NCBI GenBank assembly: GCA_029532415.1
Contig: JAQOTA010000008.1
Location: 62,001 to 126,000, forward strand
Reading direction: 5' to 3'
Origin: Marasmius tenuissimus
Taxonomy: Eukaryota; Basidiomycota; Agaricomycetes; Agaricales; Marasmiaceae
DNA length: 64,000 nt
Numbering within the stretch: the first letter of the stretch is position 1; every line of letters starts with the position of its first letter. Below the pieces are notes generated by a model. The model had not been told where the DNA came from and searched no databases. It saw only the letters and a program-made list of their open reading frames with translations. The position numbers and the translations under genes are program-made. Positions 6,619 through 61,212 of this stretch are shown piece by piece.

Positions 6619-6650
6619 CCCGGTTTTTGAATCACATATACGCTCACCTT

Positions 6651-6935: not shown

Positions 6936-6938
6936 TAA

Positions 6939-7563: not shown

Positions 7564-7575
7564 AAAGTTCTCTGT

Positions 7576-8205
7576 TTTCGTCTTCATGGTCCGTCGAATG
7601 TGGTCAGAGTACAGAGTTGTCTTCTGGCTTGAAGTGGATCTAGACGGTAAGAACAATGAATTTCGGCACAATCGGCGGATCAGACAAACAAGACGCACTG
7701 AGAGTCAGACAAGAAACCGAGCCTCTCGTGGTTTTGAGCTCCTCACTTGTCAGCAACTTGGACTAGCGTCGTCTGGTGTCGATAAACCTCACCTAGCTTC
7801 CTCAAAAGTAGAAGTAACGTGAGGCCTGGCAGCGATACTGAGTGCGATGATAAGATTCGTGAAAGAACTCACGAATCGAGTCTTGACTGCATCTCCACAA
7901 CAACCATCGCGATTCTTGAATGTCTGCGGGTACTGAGAGAGGTTCTGAACTTCTGACGGTATGGTGATGGTTGGGAACAAGGGAGGTGCGATTACGTGAT
8001 CAATGTTGATGGCATTTACTGTAACTTTGAGGGCGCTGGTAGGCGCGTGATACGGATTTGACGTTTGTTGTTCAAATCCGTCGTGATTGTTGAGGCACAG
8101 TTCGAATTCATAACTAGAAGCTCCTAATTCAGTGAGCGCAGCTGAAATTCAAGCACACATGTAAATATTACTCATTTGCCTCATCATTAATCTGACAGCC
8201 CCGCG
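7576..8205 (+). repeat. Dispersed unit R, 3' part (decayed copy)
   Basis: Matches 29880-30130 plus 37890-38270, and 50240-50690, through shared blocks such as GGTAAGAACAAT, GACGCACTGAGAG, AAAGAACTCACGAAT and GATTACGTGATCAATGTT. Here the unit is uninterrupted at the point where element M sits in the second copy. No reading frame is supported. The left end abuts the CTCAAGT repeat. Confidence 0.7.
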
Positions 8206-9999
8206 AAGGTCTGACTGATTGTGGGGAAAGCCCTTGGTGTAGATCGCCCACTAGTTATCCTCTGTGGTAGAGTTTCCAAGAATACTAACCGTCCAAAACC
8301 TACATGCTCACATCTAAGTAGTGTTTGGTCTTCAGATCATAGGCTGGTGGAAATCAACCAAGGTCTGGAAATGAAGTATGCTATTCCGAAAGGAGGTATT
8401 CACGCGCCACGGGGGTTGGTGAAGGTAACATCGACAGAATGGGACTCATCCTCACAATACATAATAAATCTGAGTGGTAACATGGAGCAGGAAAGTGACC
8501 ATAACAACCTTCCACCGTTCGGTCCAATTGGGAAGGTCATATGTGAGTTTGATCTCGGAGAATTGAAGTATCTGCGGCAGAATGTTGTTTTTGGTACAAC
8601 GCAGCAGTAGACATGGCGTACTCATGTCTTCCCCCTGCTCTGGGTCCCTGAACCGAGGTATCGGGGCTGTAAATTGACTCTGGAATTGTCTTGCCCGACA
8701 AACTTGTTGGGCACTCTCCGCGGAGTAGCGATTGAGTTGCAAGGTCATAGAAGTCTCCAAGAACAGAACAACGAGTATCTCACGTCTCGTGGTCCTCTCG
8801 TTTTGACCGGAGTCGATATAGCTAGCCAGAGAGGCTAATGAGTGACTATGTGGCTTTGAAGGGTCCTGTCGGCCGATGTGTAAGGTCAATCTCCATGAAA
8901 AAGTGTTCGATCGCTGCACTTTATTCATACCAAGGCGTCTAATTACGCCGTCTCAAGCGAATCCAATTGTTTTCCTTACCAGCCGATGTGAAGCTCACAG
9001 ATGTAAGTTGTAATTTTTGCGAAGTCCAGTACAAACAACAAGCACAGAAAAAAGACGTTCAGCTGTGACACCCACTCTGAATATACAACCTTTGGGTGGC
9101 AATAAACCAACGGCACCTCCCAAGCCATAGCTTTGGCTACTTCTTCGGCGAATCATATGCAATTCCCAAGAAGTATGGAGCCCATGATCGGGCCCAGAAA
9201 TATCTGGAGCCAAAGGAATAGAGGAATGACCCACAGCTGTCATAATACTTGTCTCCGGCATCATATCAGAGTAACCTCAACTCACGCAGTACGCTCGCTA
9301 TAGCCTCACACGAGAACCGCTATCCACTGAGATGAAGGTGGAGCGTCGAGTCGACGAATGTCTTTAAACCCATCTTAACGTAGCATAGGTTCCCTTGATA
9401 GGTCAACTTAGGACGTTCAGTCGAGCATGATCTCAACCGGGGCGGTCTTACAATCAAGACATGACAGGGCCCTGAGGCGCGCAAGGTCCTTGATCATATT
9501 GCACTCCTACGTTCCAGCTTTCGAATAACCAGATAGTCAATCCCGCAGGACGACCAAGAAGTGCTAGGTTTCACCTAGCCAGAGCCCTTTCCTGCTGGTG
9601 AACTTCTAACGAGGGTTTCCCCCCCGAGGCTCAACATCTGTCACCAATGCGTTCGGGCATCTGAGAAGCTGGACAGGCGGTCTATGGGCATCAACTCAGA
9701 GCAATATGATCGCGAGAAGAATGTGCTCTAACCATGATTACCGAATACTTGATCCAACAATGATGCACATCTCAACCTTCAAAATTTTCGGAAGTTTGAT
9801 CCTCATCCTCAGCGATTTCGGTCATAGGATATCTTCTCACGACCTGCTATGTATCTGGGGAAACGGGAACATGAGTACGAAGTTCAGTTGTATAGGGACA
9901 GCAATCGTACTGATGCTTTGAGTCTTCGATATCCACTCTAGTGAGCAATACGAGAGGGAACGGGCACTTCCATCAGAATAGCAGAATGCGGGCCTCTTC
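8206..9999. other. No recognised gene
   Basis: An open frame at 8221-8610 (+) starting with a non-ATG codon could code for 129 residues, but it shows no recognisable domain, intron context or paralogue in the window. The remainder has only short frames. The stretch is probably decayed intergenic or repeat sequence. Confidence 0.5.
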
Positions 10000-18295: not shown

Positions 18296-18441
18296 TGTTG
18301 AGGCAGAGGTCCTGCCCATGCAGTGGCAGCATGGGACAGACTAGCTCACCTGGAGATAGGCTTAGAGGCAGCAACGAGAGTAGTGAAGCATAGATGCGGC
18401 CCGATACAACGGTCCATATATCCGGTAGTCCAGATTCAACA
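18296..18441 (-). repeat. Copia A2 3' LTR, 146 bp, internally deleted
   Basis: It has the same ends as the 258-bp LTRs but lacks 112 bases between AGAGTAGT and GAAGCATAG. In the shared 146 bases it differs from the A2 5' LTR at about three sites, two of them CpG to TpG/CpA changes. Confidence 0.93.
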
Positions 18442-18482
18442 CTCCCCCTCGCTAAGTGCGGCACAAGTAGAGCACTAAGTGT

Positions 18483-21400
18483 CTATTTGGACAGAAAAAA
18501 TTCAAGTCCAAGATGTTCTCTAAAAGCAGAGAACTTGACATGACCCAAATTTTTGGTAAACATGTCTGCAGGATCGTAGGCACTGTCAATAAAGAAAAGA
18601 TCGACCTTGCGGTCTGAAACACATTCGCGAATATAGTGATAGTGAATATCAATGTGTTTGGTCCGACGTTCTTGAACTGGGTTAGAGGCGATAAAAATTG
18701 AGCCTTGATTATCTCCACATATGGGAACGGGAGTCATATCGATCCCAAGTTCAGAGAGTAACTGTCGAATCCACACAGCCTGACGACTACAGTCGGATAG
18801 CGCCATATATTCAGCTTCAGTGGATGAAAGCGCAACAGTCTTCTGGGCGTGTGATTGCCAACAGAAGATGCCACCTGCCAATTTGAAGAAATAGCCCGTG
18901 ATCGACCGACACTTGATAGGATCAGCAGCCCAATCAGAATCAGTGAATGCTAGTAAACCTCCATCAGAGGCTCCATCATAGACCAATGCATAGTCTGGAG
19001 TTCCTGCAAGATAGCGGCAAATATAAAGCGCCTTCTTCAGGTGATCCTCCGATGGATTAGCAGAGAATTGAGAAAGCTTTGTAACAGCGTAGGCAATATC
19101 TGGACGAGTGCCAAGCATGATATACAAAAGCGATCCAATCACTGATTGATATCGAGCGCGACGTTCGGGATCAACAGGACCTTCGTTGGGTTGTAGAATA
19201 TAGCTAGCGGGAAGAGGAGTATCTGCTGCTTTTGCATTCTGCATGCCAAATCGCTTCAAGACCTTCTTCAAGTAGTCGGTCTGGTCAAGAAGGATTTTAC
19301 GGCCTCTGCGACGAATACGCATGTGCAAGAACTCTTTAACTTCTCCAGGATCACGGCATTCCCAATGAGCCATAAACTCAGCTTTCTTCTTTTCAACAAA
19401 GGCTTTGTTGGGTCCAAGGAATAATGCATTGTCAACATAGATCAAAGCGATACATTCTTCACCAGTCTCACGATCTTTGCAGATGAAGAGACCTGCATCG
19501 GAAGTTAAGCGTTTGAAGCCCATTACTTCCATGGATGAGCTAAGAGCACGCCACCACTCAAGAGCGGCTTGCTTCAGTCCATATAATGCACGGCGAAGGC
19601 GATAGACTTTGCCTTCCTGACCCTTAACCTTGAAACCTTCAGGTTGATCCATATAGATCTCTTCTTTAAGTTCACCATAAAGGAAGGCGTTCTTCACATC
19701 CAATGCCTGAATGTGCCAGTTTTTGAGAGCTGCGAGTGCGAGCATCATCCGTACAGTTTCAAACCGCACAACTGGTGAGAAGATCTCATCAAAGTCAACA
19801 CCTTCAACCTGAGAGAAACCCTTGGCAACAAGTCGAGCTTTCTTTCGACCATCTGACTTAACGTCAAACACCCATCTGTTTTTGACAGCCTTGCAACCTT
19901 TAGGTAGGTCAACCAATTCAAAGACCTTGCGCTTGCGAAGAGCCTCTAGTTCATCGCGGCAAGCAGCCTTCCATTCTCTCTGCTGCTCAGCTGGCAGCTT
20001 CAGTATGTCACGGAGAGTCCACTCGCGAACGTTAGACATATTGGTGAGGTCATCGTGAACGGGAACTGCCCGATTTAACAGATAAATCACAAAACCTACT
20101 CCCCCTTCCTGGGATAATTGTTGCACTAAGCTATCGGGCTGACTCCCCCTGGAGTTACACATGGTAGACAGACTGGCACGATTAGTCCCAGGAACCTTTC
20201 TAGGTCTGCCTCTCCTACGAGTAGTAGGTGGATCCATGGGTTCTCTATCACCCGTGGCATCTCTCCATGTAGAGTTTTTCTCCATATCACGCACAATGCG
20301 CGAGGGATTATTTGGGTCTTGTTGTTCACCAAATACGTTATCAGGTTGCTTAGTACCCGTCCGTTTCCTGCCTGAACGCCTTGGCGGCGGAGTCTGCTCT
20401 TGTCCACCCACTGGTGTAGGTGGCCTGGGAGGCTGGAACGGAGGATCAGGATCAGAGTGTTGACATTCACCCTGAGGTACAGTACCATCTCCATCATCGT
20501 CATGAGGAGATTCTGATCACTTTGGAAGGTTCTTGGGAGGATAAAGATCGTCATCAGACGAATCATCATCACTATCCGAAGAGAAGTTGGGATTTTCACC
20601 CAATACTGGCGGTATTTCAGGGATTTCACCCACCGGGGTAAAGCCACGCGGTTTCTTATCAGAACACTTCGGGAACAAATTTTCATCGAACAGAGCAGTA
20701 GCGCTTTTGAAGATACTATTATTGGACATCTTCATGAAGACATATCCTTTCATGCCTTCCTGAAAACCAATAAAGGTCATCAGTTCCGAACACGGAGATA
20801 ACTTGTTAACTCGACGCTTTTCTGGAATGAATGCATATGCTGCACATCCGAAGACTCAAAGATCCAAAACATCCGGTGCACTGCCATGCAACTTCTCATG
20901 CGGGGTCAACCAACGTAAACGCTGGGACGGCGTCCGATTATGAAGTGCAACAGCGTGCAACACGCAGAATTCCCACCAAGAAGGTGGAAGACAAGCATCA
21001 AAGCGAAGAGCTTGAGCTTTCTCGACAATGGTCTGATTGAACCGTTCTGCACGACCATTCTGTTCCGGCGTATATGGAATGCTGGTCAGAATTTTGATAC
21101 CGTGCTCCTTCAGTACATCATCGAAGGCATCCGATTTGTACTCTCCCCCTCCATCGGACATCCATTCCTTAATATCAACACCGAATTGTACCTTCACCAT
21201 AGCAATAAAGTCACGGAGCATCTTGACAGAGTCAGATTTGCGTCGCATGAGCATTGTCCAGCCATGTGAAGTACAGTCGTCGACAAACGACATATACCAT
21301 TTGTATTTGTGGTACAACTCAGTGGGGAATTGTTTGAGGTCGGAGTGGATTTTTTCGAAGGGTTTCGAGGCACGGGTAGTGGAGTCAGGGAACAATCTGG

Positions 21401-23684
21401 AGTGCATCTTTCCTTCTGCACATCCTCGGCATAACCGGGTTTTCTTCGGTTTCCGGTCGAATTCCGGGAAGTTCTTAGTATGCTTCCGAGCTTTATCCAG
21501 AGCCTTGTCTGAACAATGTCCGAAACGTCTGTGTAGAACCTTGTAGTCAACTTTATCCATCGTTGACTTGGCCATTAAGCTACGAGCAGAGGCTTTCTGC
21601 GAGCTAACCCAATAAATGGTTTGACCAGGCATGAGCGGGTAAGATGCCAATGATTGGCGTCGACCCTTTTGATAAAAAGCCAATTTGCTAGACGATCCGC
21701 GTACTTGCAGACCACCTTGCAAGAATTCTCCAAGTGAGAGAAGTTGAATTGACAGAAGTGGAACATAATAGACAGGATAGAGTCGCGTAATGCATTCCTC
21801 CATACGACTGTCAGATCCTTCAACAGAATGAGAGATGAACACAGTCCCTTTCCCCTTGATTTGGATAGGGTTGTCCTTCTGTGCAGTGTTTAGCTGCGGT
21901 CCATTGTTCATGGGTTCATACTCGGCAAAATCTTCGAGATCATAAGTAAAGTGCGATGAAGCACCCGAATCGACAATCCACTCTTGCAAGTTTCCAGTCG
22001 CCTTCTTTCCCTTACAATTGGCACATGTGGCAAAGTGATCACCAATAAATTGCGCAAATTTCATACGGGACACGATATCCGAACTACTACGTTTAGAAGC
22101 GGCTAATAAAGCGGCGCACTGTAGGTTCGTATCAGTGTTAGAAGAAAGACTGAGATAAGGCACTTGCCTGTCATCGTCAGATTCCTCAGATCCGATGGAG
22201 ACTGAATTGTACTCAACATCGTCGGAAAAACCAGCGGCATCTGCGATCTCGCTGTCAACGTCCATGGCACTTCCACTCGTAATCTCCGTACGCAAAGAAT
22301 CGTTTACAGCGTTCAACGCGATACGATCCTCACGCTCAGAATCGGAGTCCTCATAGAAAGAATCATAGAGGTTGTAAACCTTCTCAACGCTCTTAGCACG
22401 CTTTGCAGGTGGAGCAGGGGAGAAGGGACCATCAATACGATGCTTGAGGGAGGAAGAGGAAGCAGCCGCATATCCCTGTTCCATAGGTTCAAGGACGTGG
22501 GCATACTTGGGAACACCAAGACGATCAGCAAGACTGCGAGCAGCCTGAGCATTCTCAAAAACAGTACCACCAGAGGTAGCACCGGAGAAACGCTGCATGT
22601 GGAGTGGATCCCGGGATCGGTCCGCGGGATGTACGACAGATGGAGTATCAGGAACGATGGGCGGTGAAGAGATGGACAAATGAGAGAGGGACGCGATATG
22701 AGAATGACCCTTGTGAGAGGAGTCACCCTTGTTGTCCTGAGAATCACCCTTCTTCTTCCTGCCACGTCGGTTATTCTTCTTCTTCTGGTCGTTGTCGTTC
22801 TTAGACTGGTTGTTATTGTTAGACGTCGACGAAGGAGGATTAGACTGTTGGTTAAACTTCGGGTCCTTGTCCTTCTTTTTGACAGAAGAAATGCGCAACG
22901 CGAGAGGAGCGGGTTTCTGAGCTTCGTAGTGGTTAATGACGGCATCACGAGCCACTTCGAAAGTAAGATCAGCTGGCGAGTTACCATTGGTAGCAAATTC
23001 GCGAGCGTTCGACCAGCCCTGTGGTGAAACGGAGAGGAGGAGCATGGCTTTGATAAGATCAGGGAGACCGATATCAGCTTCGTGGAGCTGTCCAAAGAGG
23101 AGTTCGAGTCGAGCTATTTCTGGAATGGGGTTTCCACCAGACAGACGGAATTCCATAATGGACTTGAAGTCCGCCCAAACAGAGACGGAAGTCTGCTGGC
23201 CATAACGAGCCTTAATCTTCTCCCAAGCGTTCCAAGCCGTATCATCATCCTCGATAACACTCTGCACGGCAATGGTGGTGGTGGCACGTAGTGCACCCAT
23301 GGCCTTGAATTCATACTTCTTCCAACGTCTATGATCCTTCTCGTGCCTGAGAAGATCCTTCTCGTACCTTTCCAAATCCTTAGCATACTGCTCAAGATCG
23401 GTAGCGTACTACTGCATCTGCACGTCAGTAGGAGAGACGGTCTCCGTACGTGTAGTTGCTTCAGTTGTAGTTGTAGCAGCAATAGTGACAGTGCGAGTAG
23501 TTGCTTTAGGTTTAGTCGGTTCTTTAGGTTTCTCGGGTGCATCAGGTTCAGGATCGTCGTTGGTATAGTGGTCGTAGAACTCGTTGATCATGGCATAGGT
23601 ACCAAGACCCTTGGACCACTTACGCCAGTTGACACCGCTGAAGACCTCAACGGTGGGGATAAGGGTAGACATAACAGGAGCCAT
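18483..23684 (-). pseudogene. Copia A2 gag-pol, broken by three stops
   Basis: One frame from ATG 23684 to the stop at 18483-18485, interrupted by TAG at 23409-23411 (CAG in A1), TGA at 20856-20858 and TGA at 20517-20519 (both CGA in A1). All domains are present in order: gag, protease with DSGAS, integrase zinc motif and D-D-E core, a Ser/Asp/Pro-rich linker, reverse transcriptase (VDFDEIFSPV, LDVKNAFLYG), and RNase H (CWQSHAQ, SSTEAEYMA, HIDIHYHYIRE). The reverse transcriptase active site reads YVDN at 19428-19439 instead of YVDD, and two residues just before it are absent compared with A3. The total would be about 1730 residues, normal for the family. Confidence 0.93.
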
Positions 23685-24000
23685 AGCGATCTGGAGTAAT
23701 AAAACAACAATCAGCATAGGTTCATCATCATAGGCAATGATAAAAGAAATCACTGCACGGTCAACGGCGATAGCCATCGATCGTTGTTGAGGACACAGTC
23801 CACCATCGTCAAACATCAATGAAGATGTCGACTTCACAGGTCCAGAACCGGTGTTAACGGTCTGCCCATCATGACAGCGATTAAGTAGTCACAATGGTTA
23901 TCGAGTGCAGCGACCACAATAGCGCATCATCATAGGCAGCACACAATAAAGGTGCACATCCTAGAGAGCTGCCATCGCAGGGCACATCGATAGGGCACCG

Positions 24001-24012
24001 GGGCCCATAACC
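24001..24012 (-). other. Copia A2 primer binding site
   Basis: GGGCCCATAACC on the plus strand directly abuts the 5' LTR at 24013. It is the same initiator-tRNA anticodon-region match as in A1. Confidence 0.75.
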
Positions 24013-24270
24013 TGTTGAGGCAGAGGTCCTGCCCACGCAGTGGCAGCATGGGACAGACTAGCTCACCTGGAGATAGGCTTAGAGGCAGCAACGAGAGTAG
24101 TAAAAGTACTGGTATTGCATGTAGATACAGAGCTACTTATATACTATACAGAGGTGGCTGTATCTTCTATAACAGGAGTGACTAGGAATAGCATAGATCA
24201 TAGTAAAACGATTGAAGCATATATGCGGCCCGATACAACGGTCCATATATCCGGTAGTCCGGATTCAACA
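24013..24270 (-). repeat. Copia A2 5' LTR, 258 bp
   Basis: Starts TGTTGAGGCAG, ends GGATTCAACA, and is followed by GAAAA of the target duplication. Confidence 0.95.
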
Positions 24271-28103: not shown

Positions 28104-30130
28104 TATACTATCGTGGAGTAATCACGTTGGGAGCTCCGTCTCTGCTCATTTCTGGCCGTCAGTGGGTTCAACACGTTGAATAATTGTTATTCCAGGCCCG
28201 AGGGTTCTTGAACACCGAGGTGCATAGGTTCACTCCTACAACGATTTTCGACTACAATGACCAAATATGCGCGTCAGCCTCGGGGGAAAATGTGTAGGAA
28301 GTCAGCTGAGTTACGCTCACCTCACGGATTCTACATATCATCGCCTCGATACCGGCCTTCCGTTCCTCCCTGCCCCCTCTAAGCGTGGGCCTACAACTTC
28401 AATACTGGCCCCGACTCCTTCACCGAGCCATAAAATTGTAACCCACCGCGATACGCCGAAAGAGTCTGTGAGGAACGGCGACAAAAAAGCAAGATGACGG
28501 TACGAAGGTGCTCGACTTCGTTACTTGAAGGTCCGGTACCTGATACGACAGTGTTTGACGGGGCAGGTTCCCAATCGTTGGTCTAACCAGATATACCCCG
28601 GTTGATAACCAAAGGGCCGAAACTGGCCTGGGGGCATATGCTGTTGCTCGTAGTGCGCGCAACGTACGCTGAATGTAGGTAAGTGGGTGAGAGCAACTTG
28701 AGATCCCAGGCCCCCGTAACAGTCTTCTCCCCTCCGATGAACTCTGTTCAGAATCCTACATGGTGAGCAGGTTATTGATACTAAACCAAGCGAATCAACG
28801 TCTTCTGAGCTCACTGTCGTTACTCAGACCTCTTCAATATTCTCTGCCATCTACATGGTCCTGCGGTTGTCTTTTCCTATCCCCCATCATAAAACTCATT
28901 ATAAGCCTATGGCAGGGATAATCCTCCAATGAATCGCCCGCATGAATCGAGAAAACAATATGGGCTTTGTGATCAGTCTGCCTGGTCCTCGCCGGCGATC
29001 TTGAATACCATATATTCAAGAGGTTGAGAGACTTTGTGTTGACTCGAAAGGTATCTGATTGTTCACCGGGGGGAAGGCTCGGGAGATCCTTTCGATGTTC
29101 CGTACGTGCTGGAACTTTGATGACCCAGGTATTACAAAGTCCACCTTATGAGCCGGAGCAAGTACATATGAATTGTTACGACGTACCATATACCACGTCC
29201 CTGCATGAGCCACAACCTGAACAACTTCCTCTATATGCATGCGATACACGGCTGGTGAAAAAAAAAACCATGAGTGAAATGGTGCTGTAGGGTCTTCGAG
29301 AATGACTCCTCGGTGATATGTTTTTCAAATATCCTGTGAACGGCAAAGCACATTAGCGGGGAAAGAGAAGGCAGACCCACGCTCATTTTGTCCTTCTCAT
29401 AAGCCATAACGCACTGAATAACCACCGGGCTCCGAGGGTCTGGAAGATTTGCTTTTATGAACTTGGGTAGAATGGACGGCGACTTTTGACGGCTCAAACC
29501 TAGATGATAGCAAAGTAACGTCGTTGAGTACGGATATGAGCAAGTTGAGAATTTAACCGCACAGTCAAGACCCAAATACAAATGAGGTGAAGAGCACCCC
29601 TCACGGTAGCGAGCGGTAAATCGTCAAGGGAATTCATTCGACACTATCAGGATTGGCTGGCCGTGATAGTAAATTATACCGCAGGCTGGAATGAACAAAG
29701 CGGGTACCTCTTTTCCGAGTTGTCTCGCGTCTTGTAGTTGGTTATTGCCAGGAGTTCAGTAACTATGTTGCCGTAACAAAAATCCAACGAGTTTCCAACA
29801 GGACTGCTCGAGGGTAAGCAGTAACGGTAGTAGTAACAATTGGGAATCCGCTACTTCATCATCGGTAGACCGTCAGATGTGGGCAGACCCATGGTCCGTT
29901 AGAGTACAGGGTTTTATTACAGCTTCGAGTAGATCTAAACGGTAAGAACAATTACTTTCTCAGTAGAATCAGAGGAATAGACGAGCACGACGCACCGAGA
30001 GTTTAGACTTCGAGTCTCGCTATTTATTTGGACGCACCCGCTTGTGAGCTTCTACAGCCAGCACCAATATTGTGTAATGTTGACGAGCTCGAGCTTCCTT
30101 ATCAGCAGGATTGACATAAGGCATGGCGGC
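28104..30130 (+). repeat. Dispersed unit R, middle part, between T1 and M
   Basis: Homologous to about 48500-50470 along its length. Examples are TCAGTGGGTTCAACACGTTG (28174), AATATGCGCGTCAGCC (28264), CTACATGGT, CGGCAGGGA/TGGCAGGGA, and CTCGGTGATATGTTTTT against CTCGGTGATGTGTTTTT. Small indels destroy any common frame. It ends at the insertion site of M, where CATGGCGGC (30122-30130) is the left target duplication. Confidence 0.7.
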
Positions 30131-30151
30131 GGGCATAGAGAAAAGTCCGTG
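30131..30151 (+). repeat. Element M left terminal inverted repeat
   Basis: GGGCATAGAGAAAAGTCCG followed by TG, paired with the reverse complement of 37869-37889. Confidence 0.85.
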
Positions 30152-30350
30152 ACGAGGTCAGTGACAGCCCAATCCGTGTATGGTCCGTATAGGATCCGTG
30201 TAAGGTCCGTGTAAAGTCCGTGTAGGGTCCGTGTATAGTCCGTGTTTGTCCTCGTGAGATACATGTAGGGTCAGTGTAGGGTCAGTGTCGACTATCGGGT
30301 CAGTGTCGACTATCGCATCAGTGTTTGATCAGTGTTTGATCAGTGTTCGA
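30143..30350 (+). repeat. Element M left subterminal array (GTCCGTGTA / GGTCAGTGT)
   Basis: About 9-11-base units repeat almost continuously: first GGTCCGTGTA-type copies, then GGGTCAGTGT and GATCAGTGTTT types. The same words form the right array in the same orientation. Arrays near transposon ends often bind the transposase (family knowledge); that role here is inferred. Confidence 0.85.
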
Positions 30351-31172
30351 CCAAGACAGGGACGGTATAAAATTAGTTTAGTCAATGATCCGTGGCCTCT
30401 TGTTTAGCCGTAGACATGTTCAAGAACGGGTTCTGACTTGTGCATATGACTGCCATTTGGCATCGATGCGAAAGTATGGCACACCTGTACTCAACAACCT
30501 ACGTTCCCAAGTCAAAAACTCAGGCTCTAGGGGTGGAACGACGAAGCCAAATGAAGGTGGATACCTCATTCGGGCTTAGATCTTAATGCCTCGGCTAATA
30601 ATAGGCACCCAGTTGAAGTGTTCGACGTGATACTGATCGGTCGCTGCCGCCACTTTTCTATGTGGAGCTACAATAGCTGGTGAACCTACAAGTTTCGCCA
30701 GCTGGGCCCGCAAAAGATGTTCCAACGCGTCCTTCCACGTACAACTAACCTCACCAGAATCTCGATGGATTGAAGTGAGCGAGGAAACATAGGTTTTAGT
30801 CGACTTGCAATTCAGGGATATCATAATGTGGAGGCTAAGACTCTTGGAGATATCAACTGAATGAAGACAACCTAGGGTGAGTAGACTTCGTACTCCTCTC
30901 ATTGTTTTTTCCCTCTTCTTTCTTTCGTCCCCTCACTCGACGCGTACTTATTCTGGTAGGTCTCTAGGAGTTTTGGGGTTGTGAATCGGGATTCCCACTG
31001 AAAGTGTGACATGAAGCAGGAAGTCGCCAAGCCCCTTTGCTTTGTCAACAACTGGTGTTCAGATTGGTTCAAAGCCATTTGAGGATACGACTTGACAAAT
31101 TGTCAGTCACTCATTCTCAACCTGACCAATTGTCGGTTGTCTTTTCCAAAAGTGCCCGTACTCAACATTACC

Positions 31173-34100
31173 ATGTTTGATCGCCTTGTGAGCGTTATAT
31201 TTATAATGTTCGGTTCCTAAATTCACTATCGTGACTCTAAGAAACGCGCGGTCCAGATATTATTTGGTTACGAGACTCAAAACAACGCGAAACGAAAGCG
31301 TCAAATCAAGCGAAAGACTCCCAGCTTTCGACTTGTTTCACGTCTTGGTTCGACTTCGAGAACCGCCAAGAGCAAGTCAACAGCTGGTTACGACAGTGAT
31401 AGTTCCCTCGGTGTGTTAGTTGCTATAATATTGCCACAGAGATACTTAGCAGAACATATATGACATAGATGAGCGCCCGAAAAAGAGGACCCGGTTCACC
31501 GATAGGTCCAAATCACCTCAAAGAGAGTCCACCGATGGGTTCAAACCAAGGCCTATTGTACGGCCCCAGTCTACGCCTGTCAAAGGTGTCCCTACATCGT
31601 CTGCAGAATTATCTCAATCGATCACTCATATCGGCGAGGCAAGACTAGCTGAACGCACCGAAAATCACAGCGGTCACGGGGAGGAGGTGACTGAGATTGA
31701 GAAAAACTTTGCTGATCTTTGTGGGGAATGGAATGGGTATCCGGATGGAAGCTTCACAACAAGTCTTACTTGGGAGCAATTTCGGGTTTTGAACGAGTTG
31801 AAGGTTGACTGGGCGTATAGCGGGTATGGTCGCCGTAATGTGAAGGGAGAGGCCGACGATGCAGATGATCCCCAATTTGGAAAACGCAGCTTTCGCGGCT
31901 GCCTTGGAATCCTCCAGTGTGATAATCCACACTGTGAGCTGATGGTACGCCCAAAGGTCAAATCGAAACTCCGAAGGGAGCAGGAGGGCCAGCTGTGCAT
32001 GTGTAATGAGCAAGATGAGGATAGCGGCGATTTGTTAACGGACTATCGCCTCGCAATCTTTCCATGCCCAAACATAGCCACACTTATCAAGTGGAAGGAA
32101 GGAGTCAAGTACCGAAATGGCTGTGCTCATAACCACCCACCATTCGAGCGCAAAAAGCGGCTATCACCTATCGAGCAGCATCGAGCAGACCTCCTCATCA
32201 AGGCTAATCCAACCGCCACTGCTTCATCGTTGCGCTCTGGGAATACTGTCACTGGAGAATCACTCTTGGATATCTGTCCTGGTCGCTTTACTACGGAAGA
32301 TGTTGTTCGGAACTTCGGAATGAGGTGAAGAAGGTTCGAGGTCCCCAATCGTCTTCAGCCGATGAGTTTATTGCTCGGTTTGCCGCCTTCCAGCAAGAAT
32401 ACCCAGACTTCGTCCTTGCAGCACACCTCCTGAACGGAATTGCGGTTATCTCGTGCCAAACCGAGTGGATGGCTGAGCGCCTTGCTTGATCGAACACTCA
32501 AGTTGAAGGGTTCTCTGGATCGGTCACAGATGGTGCACATGGCTGGTTTGCAGTCTCCACATCTATCCTGATCACATCATCTATCTTCAGCCCCACAATG
32601 CAGCGTTGGGTCCCCGGAATCTATTCATATAGTAATGGAGCGACCGCCATTCATTACGAGTACCACTTTCTGGCTAGTATGCGGTCGGTTCGGGTTATGA
32701 AAGAGAAGCTAGGACTTGGCCCGATAGTTGATGAGGACTTTGGTGGTGTACGTTGCAATTACTTTGATTTTCCATCCTCATTCATATGAAGACCACACTC
32801 TAGACCATGGACTATGGTCAGGCCCAGCTCTTGGGGTCTGATAATGCATTTGTTCGCTTTTTCCTAGAGGACCCGAATGACACCCGGACTGAGGCGGAGC
32901 TACGTGTCGCCACAGCCAAACGCGACCGTGGGTGTGGCTACCATTTTGAGAACCAGATCACCCGGGTTGGCCGAATAATTGCCATTGTTCCTGTAGACAA
33001 ACGGAAGGCTTTTAAGAAGCACGCTCAGTCTCTGAAAACGGCAGGAACATACGACGAACTCCAACGTCGAGCCAATTCATTGATAGCACGATTTCCAAGG
33101 GCTAAACGCTGGGTTCATTGGTGGACTCAGCCACACATTGCAAACATGCTTATTGTGAATAAATCAACGGATTCCAGCGATGCACGTGTTGTACTTCCGG
33201 AGACAACAAACGCTCAGGAGGCTGCCCATTTTAGCATGTACTCCCGACAAGGAAAAAAGCATGAGCTCATTACGGGACTTCAGAAGTGCTATACAATTGC
33301 TAAGGAACACGAGAAAACTTCATACGCAGTTCAACGTGAGTAAATTCCTGTTACCTAACGTGCCTTGAAATTGACTCCATGCATATAGGTGGGATTCCAT
33401 TGTATTATGGAAAGTCGCCACTTCAGCGACGTTTGAAGCTGAAGGATGAAATTTGTCGGACAAAACGTACAAGATCTTTGAAGGCTATTCGGAGGCAAGC
33501 AATGATAAACAAAGAAAAAGCACGCTCTCATCGTCCTCCTGATACAATTGATGCACTCATCCCCAAAAAGCGACGGTACGTGATTAGTTACTCCTTTGAG
33601 CAACATTCTCTTATGTAATTTCTAGACTATCATTGCGAGCCAAGTCTGTTGACAGCCGGAAACCCCTTGTTATTCACCCACGCCTGCTCCGATTGCCTGC
33701 CATTGAAACCAAGTCTAGCAGCTTAGAGTGTTCAGCTGCGGGATTGCCTCCATCTCCTGCTGTCAAATCTAAGACCCTGTCATCTGCTCAAACACGCGAA
33801 ACTGTTGTTCACCGCCCGAATGCATCGATCATCTCTAACACGTTCCAGATGATAGTTGAGGAGAATACAGGGCGCATGCAGCTGGCAATTGACTCAAAGA
33901 CGAAGAATTTGGTCGGCATACCTTGGCTGAAGAACTCCTGCTGGTTGGACTCACCTCTTGAGGTGCTATTCTGGGCAGAAATGCGTGACCTTACCGCACT
34001 GCTTCGTCTCTCTACCACCGATGAGGACCAAGATACATCATTACCCATCATACCCATCTTGGCATCTCTTGATGAGCGAAGGCACCTTCTCCTGTCCAAC

Positions 34101-37005
34101 AAGTCACCCAACGAAATCTCCGAGTTTCTTCGAAACCAAAAAATCGATCTCCATCGGTACATTATCCAAAACAAGTGGACTGTTGATCAAACCGAGGATG
34201 CCTACGATACAGACATCTCTTGGTTTGTGCATGCGCTTGCAGACACAAGGCGAGCAGGTAATACCAGCACTGGCAACCATTTTGGAGTACACTCCATGAC
34301 ATTCAAATGGTGCACCGGCTCAAACCTTGCTATCTTGGATCAGTCAGACGAGGACGGGCGTATTCAGTTCTCCCATGGACTTCTGTATGAGATAGACCGT
34401 TCACGTCCTATTCTCAATATCCCTTCCACAGAGTATGACCTCTGTAATGGAAGACTCAGCACATACTTTCAGCGCCATATAACAAGTTTCACCGATCATG
34501 CTCACGAGATGGGGACTATCCCCTGCTGGCGTGCTCGGGACGGCGATGTATGGTGCGAAGGTCTTGCCCACTTGGCCACCGTCATTGTTTCTTTACCCAA
34601 GACTCTTATTGTTCGGGTTGAGTGCGAGACGTTGGAGAATGAGTGGGAGTTTCCTAGTACTCTTTGTCCTATTGCCGACAACGAGGGACGTAAATTGGGG
34701 CTGGAATACGAGATTGTAGGCCGGGTGTTCTACAATGGGAATCACTACACCGCCCGATTTGTAGCAACAACAAATACGCCGAAACATGCAAAGGGCATGT
34801 TCTTTTATGACGGGCTTGGGGTTCACGGCGGCACAGCAGGATACAGTGTCAAGGAATTGGGGGGGATTGCCAGGGGTTTGGGTGGCTGGAATACTGAAAT
34901 GCCCTCGGGTTATCGAGATTATAGAACAACCCTCGTCGTCTATAAACTCCGTGGAGGGGAGAAGGCTCAAGAGTGGTTTTGGAACCACCAAAGGGAGTTC
35001 TTACGGTCGACCCTTGGGATCGATCTTAGTCCCTCCTATCAACGAGAGCTGTCATCCCAACCCATATTGAACCGAGCGGGATTCTCAGAGTTCCCCCCAA
35101 AGAAGATGATGTGGGTTCGTGAAATGTCTCGAAGGAATCCTCAGAATTATCGGGAGTATGTCGAAACACCCTTGCTCTCGGAGACCCTCCAGCACAATAC
35201 TCGACCCAACCCTGTTATTGATGTCGATTACGGCGACTTGACTGGCCCGAAAGGTAACAAGCATGCCATATCTGTCAAAGCTATCTCAGAGTATTTATCT
35301 TTGATTTTTCAGGTGATTTTGATGATTCAGTCGAACGCTTCATGCAGGATTCCGCGAGTCCACAAGTAGAAAACCAATCGGAACATTCGGAACGTCCCTT
35401 ACTCTCGGAATCTTCTTCGCCCGAGCCCAAAGATCTCATGGCTTCCCCTCCGTCTACCCCACTACCTTTCGATTGTCGCTGTGGTGCGAATGGTGATGGT
35501 AACTATCAGGAGGTTCAACAGGATGCGATTCAGTGCTCAGAATGCAGAAAATACTCCCATGTAGCATGCGAGCCCCATCCAACAAGGAACTTAGACTCTG
35601 ACTTCACATGCCAGAGGTGCGTTGAAGGTCAATTCAAGCTGGTAAAACCGGTAAGACAACAGTGAGTGATATCGAAACAGATTTCAAATTCTGTTGTTTT
35701 AATGAGGTGTAATAGAGATCCTGGACGCATCGACCTCATCTCCAAAGTCCATCAACGGTTGAGGTACGTTTCTGATTATTTGACACTCAAGTCACTCACC
35801 AATTGACGTACTTCATAGTTGCGGTCAATCAGTGCTGGTTCAAGACGGGCCCTATCACCGCTACCCAGCTCGGGCAATCAACCGTGATTCCAATTCTAAG
35901 TGGAAGGTTAAATGGTGGCGTGGTAATCAAGTTAGTGAGGAATCAACACATATACCGGGATCATACGAGACTGTATCATCCTCCCGAATTGTTGATGCAC
36001 TATACGGGGACATCAAAGGGCGAAGAGGTGTCCGGGTACGCAATGCATATCTTCTATACTGCTTACTTTATTTTGTGCTGACTTTCATCAGCTCGGAAAA
36101 TGGACTACAGTGCCCGAGATACCTGAAAAAGAAGAAGAAGCACATCAATTTCAATACACGATTGTTGAGAACCCCTCAAAATCCCGTCCTTATACAACAA
36201 AAATCCACGAAATTCTTTACCCTAACAAGGATCAGCTGACCCGCCTTATTTTCGACCGATCCGACCTCAACCTTGACGAATTCCCGACTCTTCGTTTCTT
36301 GCGCCACTACCATTTGACCGTTGTTCCATACACTGGCGGATTATCTCTCGAAACTCAGTCTGAGATCATGAACTGGGTGTATCATAACATTCCCGGAGTA
36401 CGTGGTACATTACCGGCATGGATCACTGATGGGTCTCTTCAACACGCATTCCTACTATGGATCGAGGGTCGCGACAGAGTCGAACTAGAGAACCTACCTG
36501 AGTGCCCCAGGAGCAAATTGAAACGTGAAAAATTTCTCCGGGAGCAGGCATGGATGAGGCTCAAACAATCCACAAGTCGGTCGGACCGAGAGTCACGAGG
36601 ACCGCCGGAGTATGTCGATATTGACCTTGAGTCCTTATCACAGCTCGAGATGGACATGTTCGATAGGTCGACAGTTGCAGGGCATGGAGGTAACTGTCAG
36701 TGGGGTCTCGACGTTGGAATCCACCAGGACAATTGGTGGCCATATATGGTGTATCCAAATAATGTAGACCATGGTAGAGACGACGAGGAGGAGACAAAGG
36801 TGAGTAGCCCGAGATCTCAAGACTTCAGTTATTGTGACCAGTACTGAAAGAAACCCTTTCACTGCGGTTTATAAAGCCTGGACGTCGCTACCATTGGGAT
36901 CCGTATACTATAAAGTGGAGAGAGCAGAAGGCACGTCAAGACGAAGCAAAGAAGAAAGCAGATGATATACCTAGACCACTACCAAAACGACTTCGAGCTA
37001 CTTGA
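31173..37005 (+). pseudogene. Transposase fused to USP-like peptidase and PHD finger (frame broken in transposase)
   Basis: Exons: 31173-31187, 31242-31410, 31469-32747, 32804-33335, 33389-33575, 33626-35253, 35313-35661, 35716-35763, 35819-36035, 36092-36799 and 36877-37005. With one lost base near 32320 they total 5262 nt (about 1753 residues) and every other junction is in phase. Residue positions: basic N terminus; GCM/WRKY-like zinc finger 205-290 (C-x4-C, RP, C-x-C, HNHPP); DDE-type core with D in VTDGAHGW (~411), D in MDYGQAQ (~489) and E in TTNAQEAAH (~626). Next is a ubiquitin-specific-peptidase-like domain with Cys in KNSCWLDS (~832), His in GNHYTARF (~1100) and Asp in FFYDGLGV; then a C4HC3 PHD finger (~1320-1375), a possible small barrel (KWKVKWWRGN) and a basic tail (PKRLR). 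Breaks: the frameshift and TGA at 32487-32489. Confidence 0.85.
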
Positions 37006-37084
37006 GTCTTGTTTCATTCCAAACTATAGTTTAGAATCTTCCCGAGATAATTTTTGTCCTCCAAAACAGCGAGTCCTAGTTTTG

Positions 37085-37440
37085 AACCTCTGTATGGTCA
37101 GTTACGGGTCAGTGTAATATCAATGATGAGTCCGCATGAGGTCAGCGACAAGTTCGCGTAAGGTCAGCAACAAATCCGTGCTAGGTCAGTGACAAATCTG
37201 TGCTTGGTCAGTGACGAATCCGCACCAGGTCAGTGACGAATCTGCGCCAGGTCAGTGATGAGTCCGTGTAAGGTCAGCGAAGAGTCAGTGTGAGGTCAGT
37301 AACAGGTCCGTGACAGATTCGCGATAGTCAGTGTTAAGTCCGTGACAGTCAGTGTTGAGCCCGTGAGGGTCAGTATTGAGTTCGTGAGGGTCAGTGTGAA
37401 GTCCGTGTTGGTCCGTGTGGAGTCCATGTGGAGTCCATGT
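37085..37440 (+). repeat. Element M right subterminal array
   Basis: GGTCAGTGA, GTCCGTG and variants (AATCCGTGC, GGTCAGCGA, AGTCAGTGT) repeat with about 10-base spacing. They are more diverged than in the left array and in the same orientation. 37441-37790 between this array and the terminal hairpin holds nothing recognised. Confidence 0.85.
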
Positions 37441-37868
37441 TTAGTACATCTGTCTTAAGATTGTGCACAGTTTTTTTGCTACCTGAGGATAATTTTGAGC
37501 TCAGGGCAAGATCTAAGACTCACACGCAAGTGCAGAAGTACTATATATTGTGTCATCAATGCCTCGCCTTTCATTGCTGGTGGTAGATGCTTGCAAATAC
37601 CACTCTAACAACTGTGAATTAATGTGGGGATCTGATTTTGGCGTTTGCCGAGATGACTTCAGTGTTGTATCCATCTCTTTCAAGGACACAGAGAGGCTTA
37701 AAACCTATTTGGATTGATTGATGTACTTATTTATTGATTCAGGTCACAAATTACCTATCAACTATTTTCTGAGGTCAGTTAACCACGAACAGTAGTCAAT
37801 GTCAGGTCCGTGGGAAGTCCGTGTCAGGTCCGTGTCAGGTCTGTAAAAAATAGGTGACACGGACCTGA

Positions 37869-37889
37869 CACGGACTTTTCTGGTGGCCC
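37869..37889 (-). repeat. Element M right terminal inverted repeat
   Basis: The reverse complement reads GGGCCACCAGAAAAGTCCG followed by TG. It is preceded by a near-palindrome at 37805-37876 built from GTCCGTGTCAGGTCCGTGTC and its inverse. Confidence 0.85.
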
Positions 37890-38270
37890 CATGGCGGCGA
37901 TGCTGAGTGTAAAATTATAAGATTTGTGGAAGAACTCACGAGCTGAGCGATGACCAGATTCCCACAGCAACTTTCACGATTTTGTATCATCCGGATACAG
38001 GTGTGAGAGTATTGGGGGAGATTCTGAGGGTACGGTGAGATGGTTCGGAACAAGGGAACTGTGATTACGTGGTCAATGTTGGCATTTGACTTTGAGGGCG
38101 CTTGTGGGTGTTTAATATGCATTCGACGTTTATTGTTCAAAGTTATTGTGATTTTTGAGGTGCGGTTGGTATTGTAGGCTAATAATAAGATCCTGATTCA
38201 GTAGAAGTTGCTGGAGATCGAGTACTGATGTCAATTTCTCATTCACCTCACCAATGATCTGACAAAGACA
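37890..38270 (+). repeat. Dispersed unit R, 3' part, beyond element M
   Basis: Continues the R copy of 28104-30130. GCGATGCTGAGTG, AAGAACTCACGAGC, GATTACGTGGTCAATGTT and CCAATGATCTGACA match 7830-8200 and 50480-50690. Confidence 0.75.
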
Positions 38271-50690: not shown

Positions 50691-51233
50691 ACCAGTATAT
50701 CGATTTCCATGAGCATTGGACCTTCTATTCAAGGAAAAACTACCTAAATTTGTCTGCTTTCATTGCCGGGGCCTGTCTGTCCACACTCCGACTCTGAACT
50801 CACGGCAACACCTTGGATTACTGTGAATGGTCACCTATGGCATAGCCCTCTACATGTCCTATCCGTTCAATCCCGAGATAACTTTGCTTGTATTTGACGG
50901 GCGAGAGATCAACTATACCCCAACCCATGGGCCGGTCTGGCAGATGTACATGCATGATAAACTTACAACGGGCACAGATATAAGTCCTGTATACGGAATA
51001 CTGAGACTCGGAGCGTTGAACGAGATGTAACGAATATCCCTCCCAGATTGTCAAAACTCACGCTGTGTCTCGTGTCAAAGAGACGACTTCACTGAGCGGC
51101 CGTGGGCTCATGAATGACCCAAACTTTAGCAGTATTGCGACGAACTAGACAGTAGTTGCAGGTCACACTTGTCAACAGTCTCGCCTTCTACCTCCAACTT
51201 TTCGTGCCGCACCATCTATCCAGCTCTTCGGAT
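50691..51233. other. No supported gene
   Basis: A 67-codon plus frame at 50827-51030 (ITLLVFDGREINY) is the only tidy frame. It has no splice partner or paralogue and may be chance. Confidence 0.4.
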
Positions 51234-51868
51234 TCAACTACTCCACGGCCACCTTCCCTTCAAAATCGGGGCAAAATCCTTGAGGCTCCTTAGGCCCTCT
51301 ACCTTAAGTTTTCACCCTCAAGTATGCCGCTCAAGTAGTAGATCTCAAAATCAGATTCAACTTGAGTATCACCTTGACAAATATCTGAAGGAATGACTTG
51401 AGGAAATCTTGAGAATGACTTGAGCAGAAAACTTGAGATTCACTCTGTACTAATGTAGGTAGGGAACTTGAGCGAAAATTGAGTAGGGAATAATAGCCTT
51501 GAGAGAAGAAGTCAGACTTGAGTACATAAAGTATGGACTTGAGCAAAGAGGAAAATGGACTTGAGTGAAGGAAAATGTGGACTTGAGCAAATGATAAGGA
51601 GACTCGAGAGTATAAACATGAGTAAAGGAAAGTATAAATTTGACCAATGAATTGCCACAAAGTGGGTGCATTGACTTTTTATCCTCAGAGTCCCTTCCAA
51701 CTTGGCATCCCAGAGCTTTGTATACACCTGAAGATGGAGTGCTTAGGGTTCATGAGGACAGAAGTCATTTGTTGCTGTGAGTCTTTTTTTTGTCTTGATT
51801 CTCGTTTGTTTCTGAAACTTGGACAGGTGGGACGGAACATGATGAATGGTTTGGGTTAAATGAATGCC
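51234..51868 (-). repeat. Dispersed repeat, inverted mate of 6939-7563
   Basis: Reverse complement of the CTCAAGT-rich repeat near the left end, with one diverged stretch (51345-51400). The near identity over 0.6 kb against heavily decayed surroundings points to recent movement or gene conversion. Confidence 0.85.
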
Positions 51869-56735: not shown

Positions 56736-59700
56736 ACTCTCCCCCTCAGTGCCGGTAGCGAGGTTGAGTCGTGAGACGAGGTCCAAGTGATGAGGCGCTG
56801 AAAGAGCCTTGGTGAAAATATCGGCGAGGTTGGAGTCGGTATGGATGTAGCGAGGTTCAATGTCTCCATTCTTCATGGAGTCCCTGCAGAAGTGGTGGCG
56901 AATAGCAATATGCTTAGTGCGGGAATGAAGGTCTTGGTTCTGAGCGAAAGCGAGTGCTGCCTGGTTGTCGACGTGGAGAATGGTGGGTTCAGGTTGGGGA
57001 GAACCGAGTTTGGCAAGAACGGCTTGGAGCCAGATGGCCTCGCGAGTGGCATGTGTCATGGCCATGTATTCGGCTTCCATGGTGGAAAGGGAGACGGTGG
57101 GCTGCTTCTTGGCTGACCACGAGATAGGTCTGCCGTAATGGAATAGGAAACTGGATACGGAGCGGCGATCAGAAAGGTTACCAGCCAATCTGCATCAGAG
57201 AAGCCAATGAGTCGATCATCAGATGTGATGCCGCCTAAAGTGAGTTGTAGATTGGCAGTGCCTTTAATGTAGTGGAATACACGTTTGACGGCAGTCCAAT
57301 GTGCCTGGGAAGGATTGGAGGAGAACTGGGATAGATGAGTGACAGCAAAAGCAATGTCAAGACGGGTCCCCAAAGCAAGGTACATGAGGGAACCAATGGC
57401 AAGTTGATAAGGAGTGTTCTCCATGGAAGGGTCGGCTTCACCAGCGGGAAGAGGTGCAAGTTTGACATGAGTGTCGAGTGGAGTAGGAGCGGTGTTTGCG
57501 TTGCTGAGTCCGAGTCTGTCAACAATCTTCCGCGCGTAGCTAGCCTGGGAAAGGTAGATGAGGCATTTAGAGCGGTCACAGTAAATCTCAAAACCGATCA
57601 TAGCGCAATTTTCACCCAGATCGTTCATCTCAAAGGAAGAGCCGAGTTCTTGTTTGGACTGAATGAGGCATTGCTAGTGGTGGCGAGAGCAAAGTCATCA
57701 ATGTGAATAGCCAGGAATTCGAGACTGTCAGCATATTGGCAAATGAATAAGGTAGGGTGAGAACTCAATGGGCAAAAGCCAAACTTTGCGAGTTCTGTCT
57801 CGTAAACTCCGCGCCAAGCATTTCCAGATTGTCGTAAGCTGTAAAGTGCCTTGTGCAGTTTCCAAACATTGGTGGTGCCGTCGTAAAAGCCAGGTGGTTG
57901 TATTATGTAGATCTTGGGTTCGAGTGTGCCGTTGAGATAAGTGCCTACGGTGTCCATGCAGTGGATTTCGAGATCTAAAGATGCGGATAAGGAAAGGAAG
58001 AGGCGAAATGATTCGAGTCGGAGTGATGGAGCATATGTATCCTTGAAATCTATATCGCGTTGCTGAGTGTATCCCTGCGCAACCAATCTAGCTTTGAAAA
58101 TTTCCTCATTGCCTCCCTGCGCGGGCTTATACTTGAATACCCATTTCGACTTAACAGTCTTTTGATCAGCGGGGAGTGGAGCTGACGTGTAGGTACCTTT
58201 CTTCTGGAGTGTAGCGAGTTCCTTCAGCATGGCTTCGTGCCATTTGGGCCAACGTGGGCTAGCTTGAGCTTCAGCGAGTGAGGATGGTGAAGGGATTGGT
58301 TCATCGAGTGTAGTTGTCATTGCATACGCAGTAACGTCAGGTTCATCAGCAATAAGTGAATGATTGGGCACAGTCGTCTTCCATGCGTCTGGACGGTTAG
58401 CCTGACTCGGGGAGTTGAGATGCCGGAATCCTGGATCTGGGATAGTGCTGCGAGTAGTAGTGCAATCTGGAGCTGTGGCAGTGGTGTGGTCGACGAATCC
58501 AAAAGAAGTTTGAAGTCCCTTCAACTCATTTGTCAAGCGTTTAGGTGCTGGGGTTTTGATGATAGGTACCGTCGTCTCAGTTGGAGTTTGCGGGAAGGAT
58601 AGAGTCGGTGGGGAAAGAGGGGTAGGAGTGCTAAATGGAGTAGGATGTGATGGTTGGACAGGAGTCGTAGATGGGATCTTGGAAGTGGAAGGAGTTGGAG
58701 TGGGAGATGGGATCCGAGGAGCCGCGGCGGGTGTAGAAGGTGGTGGAGATTGAGTGGAAGGATCTAGATCAGATGTTTCTCTCTCCCCCTTAGGTCCTGG
58801 AACGAGTATAGGTTCATTGGGGACTGTGGGGAAAATGACATCACAAGAGGATTGTGCCTTCTGACCACCGGGGAGCATGTAAAGATAAGACCGACAAAAA
58901 TGGCTGGGTTAGATTTGGCACGTGTCTTATCAATAGATGAGGTGGGCTCCTTCAGGACATAGCAGGGAGAACCAAATGGGTGAGTGGTGGAGTAGTCGGG
59001 ATCACGTTTGTAGAGTGCTCGAAAGGGAGTAGAACCATTGAGTGCTCTCGTAGGTGCGCGGTTGCGAGTGTAGTTGGCGTAGGTTACGGTGAGATTCCAG
59101 TACACAGGTGGTAGTGAAGCGTGGTTCATCATTGGGCGTGCGGCCTCGAGAGTGGTTCTGTGAGCATGTTCAGCAATACCATTCTGCTCGGATGTGTATG
59201 GGGCAGTGGTTTGGAGAGTTATACCGTGGTCCTTCGCCCATTTCTTGAATTCTCCTGATTCTGCCAGCTCCTTGGCATTGTCGATGTGGATGGTCTTCAA
59301 CTTGTTCCCCGAGGCGTTCTCCATCCAGGACTTGTACTGCTGTACACAGAGTCGGGCATCACTTTTCAATTTGAGTGGTTCTGATGTGTCCCAGCGTGTC
59401 ACGTGATCTATGATTTTGAGTGAATAACTATACCTACCAAAAGCGGTCGTGCAGGCAGGACCCCAGATGTCAACACATGCGAGATTACCGGGTTGAATGG
59501 TGGAGTGATTGGATGTGGACTCTTTGGGAAGAGGGGTGTGATGTTGTTTTGCTGTGATACACGCGGCGCAGCTGGTGAGAGGAAGTGATGTGCCTGGGTC
59601 GGAGATTTTGAAGTTTCTTTAGTGCTTGCTCATTGATGTGCGCAAAGGAGTTGTGCCATTCACGCATTGAACGGGAGATGCCAGAGTTGGTAACGAGAGC

Positions 59701-60913: not shown

Positions 60914-61171
60914 TGTTGAGGCAGAGGTCCTGCCCACGCAGTGGCAGCATGGGACAGACTAGCTCACCTGGAGATAGGCTTAGAGGCAGCAACAAAAGTA
61001 GTAAAAGTACTGGTATTGCATGTAGATACAGAGCTACTTATATACTAAACAGAGGTGGCTGTAGCTACTATAACAGGAGTGACTAGGAATAGCATAGATC
61101 ATAGTAAAACGATTGAAGCATAGATGCGGCCCGATACAACGGTCCATATATCCGGTAGTCCAGATTCAACA
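60914..61171 (-). repeat. Copia A3 3' LTR, 258 bp
   Basis: Full-length LTR with TGTTGA...TCAACA ends. It differs from the A2 5' LTR at scattered sites (AACAAAAGTAG, ACTAAACAGAGG, GTAGCTACTA). Confidence 0.95.
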
Positions 61172-61212
61172 CTCCCCCTCGCTAAGTGCGGCACAAGTAG
61201 AGCACTAAGTGT

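Follow-up and report, generated by a model that had tools for sequence, protein, structure and literature searches.

Transposons of several unrelated kinds have captured proteases of ubiquitin or SUMO, with roles there that are suggested and unproven (PMC9741609, PMC2836005), and a part for ubiquitin and SUMO in transposition has already been proposed (PMC2836005). In the passages of PMC2836005 that deal with them, Ginger1 elements encode a transposase whose C-terminal part is a cysteine protease of ubiquitin/SUMO type (Ulp1, together with a PHD finger, in Ginger1-9_HM), Mutator elements with Ulp1 join a transposase to a protease of ubiquitin-like proteins, and a Trichomonas protein carries Peptidase C19 on a transposase; a figure legend there describes an alignment of Ginger1 with Mutator proteins in their Ulp1 and PHD domains. 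VTD deubiquitinases lie in the transposon open reading frame of Helitrons, with activity shown for some (PMC9741609). Here, we report a transposon of Marasmius tenuissimus, an agaric linked to cacao thread blight, found in a 64,000-bp stretch of contig JAQOTA010000008.1 (the window; positions are counted from its first letter), whose gene is predicted to encode in one protein a putative transposase, a peptidase resembling ubiquitin-specific proteases (USPs) and a PHD finger.

The gene sits inside a DNA transposon with terminal inverted repeats and a target-site duplication. A search of the source genome of the window (71 Mb, 70 contigs) returned a near-identical copy (the twin, 98% identical) on contig C32; homology between the two (blastn) is bounded by 30130 and 37889, beyond which their flanking DNA is unlike. 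Each copy lies between a perfect 9-bp duplication (CATGGCGGC around the window element, GTGCATGAC around the twin), and both ends of both copies start with GGGC. The divergent paralogues L011 (on C41) and L013 (on C7) also have GGG-starting ends with 9-bp repeats, 7683 and 7879 bp apart, and the 9-mers of these four copies are four different ones. Comparable pairs of a 9-mer and inverted ends were given by 0 of 200 block-shuffled right flanks for each of the window element, L011 and L013; no such pair was found for L014, L015 or L016 in the 10 kb fetched, a stretch that may lack one end or both. A pattern taken from the inverted ends of the window family had five matches in the genome, namely the four ends of the window element and twin and one site on C30 with two mismatches, and its backward control had two. 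The element (30131-37889) is larger than the feature at 31173-37005 from which the earlier note started.

In each of the three copies checked (window, L011 and L013), arrays of 10- to 11-bp units are found no more than about 700 bp from either end, and the unit differs among the copies. In the window element the motif GTCMGYG occurs nine times in 30131-30400 and, near the other end, 16 times in 37010-37460, always pointing one way within each stretch, and just once in the 5.8-kb gene body (31200-37010); the last 110 bp hold three forward and two reverse occurrences. A strong palindrome (37815-37877; fold z -7.7, 0/200 shuffles as strong) is present at the right end only of the window element, where it may act as a hairpin in transposition or in ending the transcript.

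Homology-led splice models place the transposase, peptidase and PHD finger in a single gene. The modelled introns of the window copy are 33336-33388 (phase 1), 33576-33625 (phase 2), 35254-35312 (phase 1), 35662-35706 (phase 2), 35764-35818 (phase 2) and 36036-36091 (phase 0). Introns at the joints between transposase and peptidase, peptidase and PHD finger, PHD finger and next domain, and next domain and tail have phases 1, 1, 2 and 0, identical in the window, L011 and L013, and the remaining introns differ; the junctions downstream of the transposase, described earlier as in phase, held in the model. NCBI protein predictions cover two of the joints, P0005 running from the transposase to the Cys box and P0004 from the peptidase through the PHD finger to the tail. 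Two paralogue models, L011 (1822 residues) and L013 (1730 residues), have no frame break or stop; L015 was also modelled unbroken, via a doubtful run of introns, and is excluded from this count, and the paralogues L014 and L016 have six and two breaks. It counts against a single gene that this reading depends on splice models and that these drew their homology support from one another's first versions.

The window copy itself is broken in its transposase part. Its splice model (1608 residues, 5' end provisional) has two breaks, and the transposase part is interrupted both by a frame change close to 32.3 kb and by a TGA in frame (32487-32489), more damage than the one lost base of the earlier note; the frame of about 1753 residues from 31173 drawn there was not reproduced. 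The twin has the same TGA without the frame change, and one additional stop of its own. A stop common to two separately inserted copies suggests that the lineage moved in trans, and the window copy could at most be moved in that way. By eye, the first part of the transposase core has a putative first Asp codon at 32529-32531, and the second part a putative second Asp codon (32810-32812), a CxxH-like motif and a putative Glu codon (33218-33220). The GCM/WRKY-like zinc finger previously proposed upstream is likewise visible by eye only, and Pfam names nothing there.

Linkage of the domains recurs through the family. Ten peptidase loci were found in the genome (two peptidase queries and P0004), with a transposase match at nine; at the C29 locus only short transposase and linker pieces adjoin the peptidase. 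Tail matches are present at all ten, the one at C29 being about 7 kb away, beside a gag-like frame (by eye). In the window, the C32 twin, L011, L013, L014, L015, L016 and L018, the pieces follow one another in order on a single strand. Domain order is kept in paralogues on C41, C26, C7 and C62, and because it recurs where the peptidase is 33-34% identical, it is taken to be more than chance. Peptidase-free fragments also exist, as N-terminal pieces on C23 (three places), C30 and C32 and as tail pieces on C30 and C32; the result that would have told against the earlier note, transposase and Cys-His-Asp part lying in separate genes throughout, was not obtained. Relatives in the protein database were P0001-P0006 only (about 8,000 candidates scored per search), among them P0006 from Marasmius sp. 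AFHP31, and NCBI annotates the family products as hypothetical; the viral contigs and phage records scanned contained no relatives. As one part of the overall explanation developed below, which as a whole we hold to be moderately likely, this would be a low-copy family of cut-and-paste transposons encoding one large protein.

Two copies are rearranged. In L012 (C26), a 3.4-kb (approximately) internal inversion at 4961-8482 leaves the peptidase, PHD finger and most of the tail opposed to the transposase; the two edges searched share no exact inverted repeat of at least 10 bp, and the inversion may be genuine or an error of assembly. The peptidase exon of the twin is interrupted by a MITE-like (miniature inverted-repeat transposable element) insert of about 144 bp (L009, about 7277-7420), with CACTG...CAGTG ends and an internal palindrome.

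From its sequence, the peptidase probably has a USP-like fold. The Cys, His and Asp landmarks that prompted the USP assignment were borne out in order and position: KNSCWLDS (Cys codon 33939-33941), GNHYTARF (His codon 34743-34745) and FFYDG (Asp codon 34809-34811) all lie inside one open exon (33600-35369). This Cys-His-Asp order is unlike the His-Asp-Cys order of Ulp1. In the family alignment the Cys box is followed by a DxDxxW box, an LPxxL strand, FP, YxL, HY or HF, YDG and a final strand (the strand motifs LPxxL, FP and YxL were compared with host USPs by eye), and this order is retained even in far copies on C28 (28% identity) and C29 (24%), the latter without the Asp. The catalytic Cys is kept in 11/11 covering rows and the His in 14/14, and the third residue is Asp in 10 of 12 rows, Asn in one and Gly in one; rows P0004 and P0005 duplicate loci L012 and L014. 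In profile-profile comparison (hhalign), the His half aligned with pieces of ten host USPs so that the motifs coincided (score 27.1, P 5e-4, probability 31%), a score reached by 0/200 column shuffles (mean 11.0, standard deviation [sd] 2.0, maximum 18.3); a smaller alignment gave 26.3 (0/100 shuffles, maximum 22.7). When windows were slid along the element protein, the peptidase His window ranked top of 25 against USPs (19.7), ahead of an overlapping neighbour (16.3) and all others (up to 14.9).

Purifying selection on the peptidase is supported by the ratio of nonsynonymous to synonymous substitution rates (dN/dS) between L013 and the decayed copy L014, which is 0.14 over 447 peptidase codons, 0.15 and 0.07 in two transposase parts, and 0.28, the highest ratio computable for this pair, in the linker. 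Silent sites are saturated in most divergent pairs, and also in the PHD finger and small domain between L013 and L014; young pairs (L016-L015 and window-C32) have few changes and some ratios near or above 1 (highest 1.60, window-C32 PHD piece) and were not used as evidence.

The USP assignment is supported by motif order, profile-profile score and constraint, but several results weigh against it, and membership of peptidase family C19 is putative. The whole domain scored lower against USPs than its His half (25.6, P 0.0054), a first attempt with four USPs gave P 0.054, and hhalign probabilities to USPs were low throughout (1 to 31%), with a USP set that was chosen by us from UCH-model loci and had its introns cut by eye. 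Pfam matched neither peptidase nor transposase in the members scanned, no copy in the genome was listed by the UCH, UCH_1 or C98 model (the profile search against peptidase C19 proposed in the earlier note thus gave no match), and PDB profile searches with the peptidase returned no USP. Structure prediction, the other check proposed there, lent the fold no support: mean pLDDT (predicted local distance difference test) in AlphaFold was 35 with four alignment rows and 39 with seven, too low a confidence to use, and Foldseek with the second model had no match at E 0.001. The best PDB match, a metalloproteinase inhibitor (E 0.0084), covered about 40 residues of the His region only and was rejected as a chance match; the Foldseek list, including a USP28 chain at rank 41 (E 4.3), was judged noise, and nothing was drawn from it.

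The presence of a PHD finger is supported by profile matches. In the window copy alone it has a Pfam E of 0.0018, under Pfam's cut-off; searched with the family profile, the PDB gave a list of 27 sequences down to E 1, led by PHF13 and PHF23 through their PHD fingers (E 2.3e-5), and the eight C4HC3 zinc ligands are invariant in 5/5 alignment rows, confirming the C4HC3 finger first read from the sequence by eye. PF00628 matches 5/5 members at E up to 1, with single-sequence scores below the curated cut-off, and zf-CW also matches weakly in 2/5. The PHD fingers of PHF13 and PHF23 bind H3K4me3. A small domain of about 70 residues follows, conserved and aligned in the four copies given; it had no Pfam match for L011 and L013 and weak, unrelated PDB matches, and an SH3-barrel (Tudor-like) reader is a guess made by eye. 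The C-terminal domain had no Pfam match and no credible PDB match.

The peptidase might act on SUMO or another ubiquitin-like protein, as an isopeptidase of USPL1 type in the role that Ulp1 has in transposons of plants and animals, a reading that we consider possible and rather unlikely. Blocking loops adjoin the active site of canonical USPs, and USPL1, which is SUMO-specific, is without both, easing SUMO binding (PMC8983731). From the Tyr of YxL to the catalytic His there are 12 residues in 12/12 element sequences found by pattern (window/twin and L012/P0004 being near-duplicates), compared with 16-17 in the nine of ten host USP pieces that reach that far (of the host pieces, two had an intron cut out inside this stretch and one has Arg for Tyr) and 13, by eye, in USPL1. 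This short stretch suggests, by length only, a short or missing second blocking loop, and CWLD at the catalytic Cys is common to the element and USPL1. However, a short loop is possibly of independent origin, the C98 model (PF15499) lists none of the copies, and hhalign scores to USPL1 stayed within the range of shuffles: 19.8 for the Cys block (P 0.007, 3 sd over the shuffle mean; best of 100 shuffles 25.4), 14.9 for the His block (shuffle maximum 17.1) and 22.5 for the whole domain (shuffle maximum 26.5). A self-processing protease, cutting the polyprotein at a conserved Leu-x-Gly-Gly after the last strand and so freeing the transposase from the PHD half, seems improbable to us. USP-fold proteases cleave after Gly-Gly, LRGG, LKGG or LQGG stands at this place in the window, L011, L012, L013, L014, L016, P0001, P0003, P0004 and P0006, and both Gly are invariant in six alignment rows; the motif is not unique, however, as L011 and L013 each have two additional LxGG sites, the decayed copy L017 has PRGG, and the Gly-Gly is perhaps merely a strand end. 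We would also be surprised if the Cys-His-Asp part were dead or structural and its motifs remnants. The same decayed copy has lost the third catalytic residue, and no sequence library recognises the domain, but Cys (11/11) and His (14/14) are retained and dN/dS (0.14) is like that of the transposase. A USP-like enzyme remains our preferred reading of the domain.

The class of the transposase is less clear. That the element is a Mutator-like transposon, as the earlier note had it, agrees with transposase motifs that resemble a Mutator-like element (MULE) by eye and with 9-bp duplications and GGG ends, which fit in four copies (MULE range 8-11 bp); the profile tests do not agree. The MULE model PF10551 lists 25 other places in the genome and none of these copies, hhalign against 13 canonical host MULEs gave 14.8 (100 shuffles: mean 14.0, sd 2.6, maximum 21.8), and NCBIfam yielded only one weak ISL3 match (E 0.085). 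Canonical MULEs thus reside in the same genome (25 matches, e.g., L045 and L050), with no detectable profile kinship to this family. The negative MULE tests, together with the 9-bp duplication, PHD finger and minisatellite near the 3' end that are traits listed for Rehavkus (PMC6446971), leave a considerable, somewhat less than even, chance that the element is Rehavkus or an undescribed superfamily. Rehavkus is, however, listed from arthropods and annelids only in the part of PMC6446971 concerned, and was likened by published traits, not by sequence; the arrays of the element are near both of its ends, and the inverted repeats of Rehavkus range over 26-400 bp, with 16/20 positions alike here over the first 20 bp, the only stretch scored.

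We propose a mechanism that we judge somewhat more likely than not, in which one protein consists of zinc finger, DDE core, USP-fold isopeptidase, PHD finger, small domain, C-terminal domain and basic tail. The zinc finger would bind the 10- to 11-bp subterminal repeats, and the DDE core would cut the GGG-ended inverted repeats and insert the element with a 9-bp duplication. The PHD finger may tether the complex to tails of histone H3, which would probably carry H3K4 methylation and lie in open chromatin. The isopeptidase could strip ubiquitin or SUMO from the transposase itself, from histones or from repair factors, and removal of the tag would protect the transposition complex or ease its work. 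The more specific version, in which the isopeptidase has a USP fold but no ubiquitin blocking loop and removes SUMO or ubiquitin in open chromatin where the element is excised or inserted, is speculative and on balance doubtful. A divergent, constrained peptidase and unbroken gene models of paralogues make the tag, the target protein and the transposition step directly testable.

Table 1. Coordinates of the transposon and its predicted parts in the window
Feature	Position	Strand	Basis
Left target-site duplication CATGGCGGC	30122..30130	.	Identical 9-mer at both ends
Whole transposon, 7759 bp	30131..37889	+	Homology to C32 twin spans 30130 to 37889
Left terminal inverted repeat GGGCATAGAGAAAAGTCCGT	30131..30150	.	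16/20 match to right end
Left subterminal tandem arrays, unit about 11 bp (TCCGTGTAAGG and variants)	30173..30347	.	TRF
Zinc-finger region (by eye) and first part of putative DDE transposase core	31671..32747	+	Exon start and 5' end model-based
Second part of putative transposase core	32804..33335	+	Motifs by eye, splice model
Basic linker, transposase to peptidase, with intron 33576-33625	33389..33881	+	Splice model
USP-like cysteine peptidase domain (predicted); Leu-Arg-Gly-Gly near end	33882..34976	+	Motifs, hhalign, dN/dS
C4HC3 PHD finger (predicted)	35462..35620 (about)	+	Profile matches, ligands
Small conserved domain	35819..36035	+	Aligned in four copies given
Conserved C-terminal domain (about 220 residues), fold unnamed	36092..36799	+	Aligned in four copies given
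Basic tail, probable last exon	36878..37005	+	Weak tblastn to L015 and L016 (E 5e-4, 1e-3); outside splice model
Right subterminal tandem arrays, 11/21/22-bp units	37120..37440	.	TRF
Perfect 23-bp palindrome, predicted hairpin, adjoining right end	37815..37877	.	DNA fold z -7.7
Right terminal inverted repeat	37870..37889	.	
Right target-site duplication CATGGCGGC	37890..37898	.	

Elsewhere the window contains pieces of Copia-type long terminal repeat (LTR) retrotransposons (RVT_2, gag and integrase) at 18384-24270 and 57625-64000 and, by similarity, at 1-4098; Copia-type stretches are repeated within the window at 94-98% identity. An inverted repeat of about 630 bp (97% identity) pairs 51233-51865 with 6942-7565.

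Set beside the described systems, the arrangement is distinct in part. Transposases with Ulp1 and PHD, or with C19, are already published (PMC2836005), and the earlier note's claim of a distinct arrangement holds only for a fungal transposase that carries both a USP-like domain and a PHD finger, of which no report was found in a search that reached few subscription journals and not Repbase. Ginger1 differs in its Gypsy-integrase-related transposase, its CCGG/CCGT duplications, its Ulp1 or OTU protease and its animal hosts, Mutator elements with Ulp1 differ in the fold of the protease and in the hosts named (hydra, lancelet and plants), and the Trichomonas C19 protein belongs to a protist and the transposase_11 type, with a PHD finger unmentioned in the passage that describes it (PMC2836005). 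Rehavkus shares the 9-bp duplication, PHD finger and minisatellite before the 3' end; it is known here from description rather than sequence, and that description, in the part of PMC6446971 concerned, mentions no protease and gives arthropod and annelid hosts. USPL1 (peptidase C98) shares CWLD at the active Cys and the short stretch before the active His; it is a SUMO peptidase without a transposase (PMC8983731), and of the profile comparisons with the element, that with the C98 model was negative and those with USPL1 stayed within the range of shuffles. Helitrons with VTD deubiquitinases are rolling-circle elements, and the VTD active site is Asp-x-His (PMC9741609), whereas the Asp of the element stands 22 residues after the His; a VTD identity for its peptidase was set aside on this residue spacing only. 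The present family contributes a USP-like domain not recognised by current annotation, and the element may help itself against host protein tagging where it moves. If the more specific, doubtful version of the mechanism is true, a single polypeptide would cut DNA, read a histone mark and edit host tags, and its protease would stand beside Ulp1, OTU and VTD as another captured kind.

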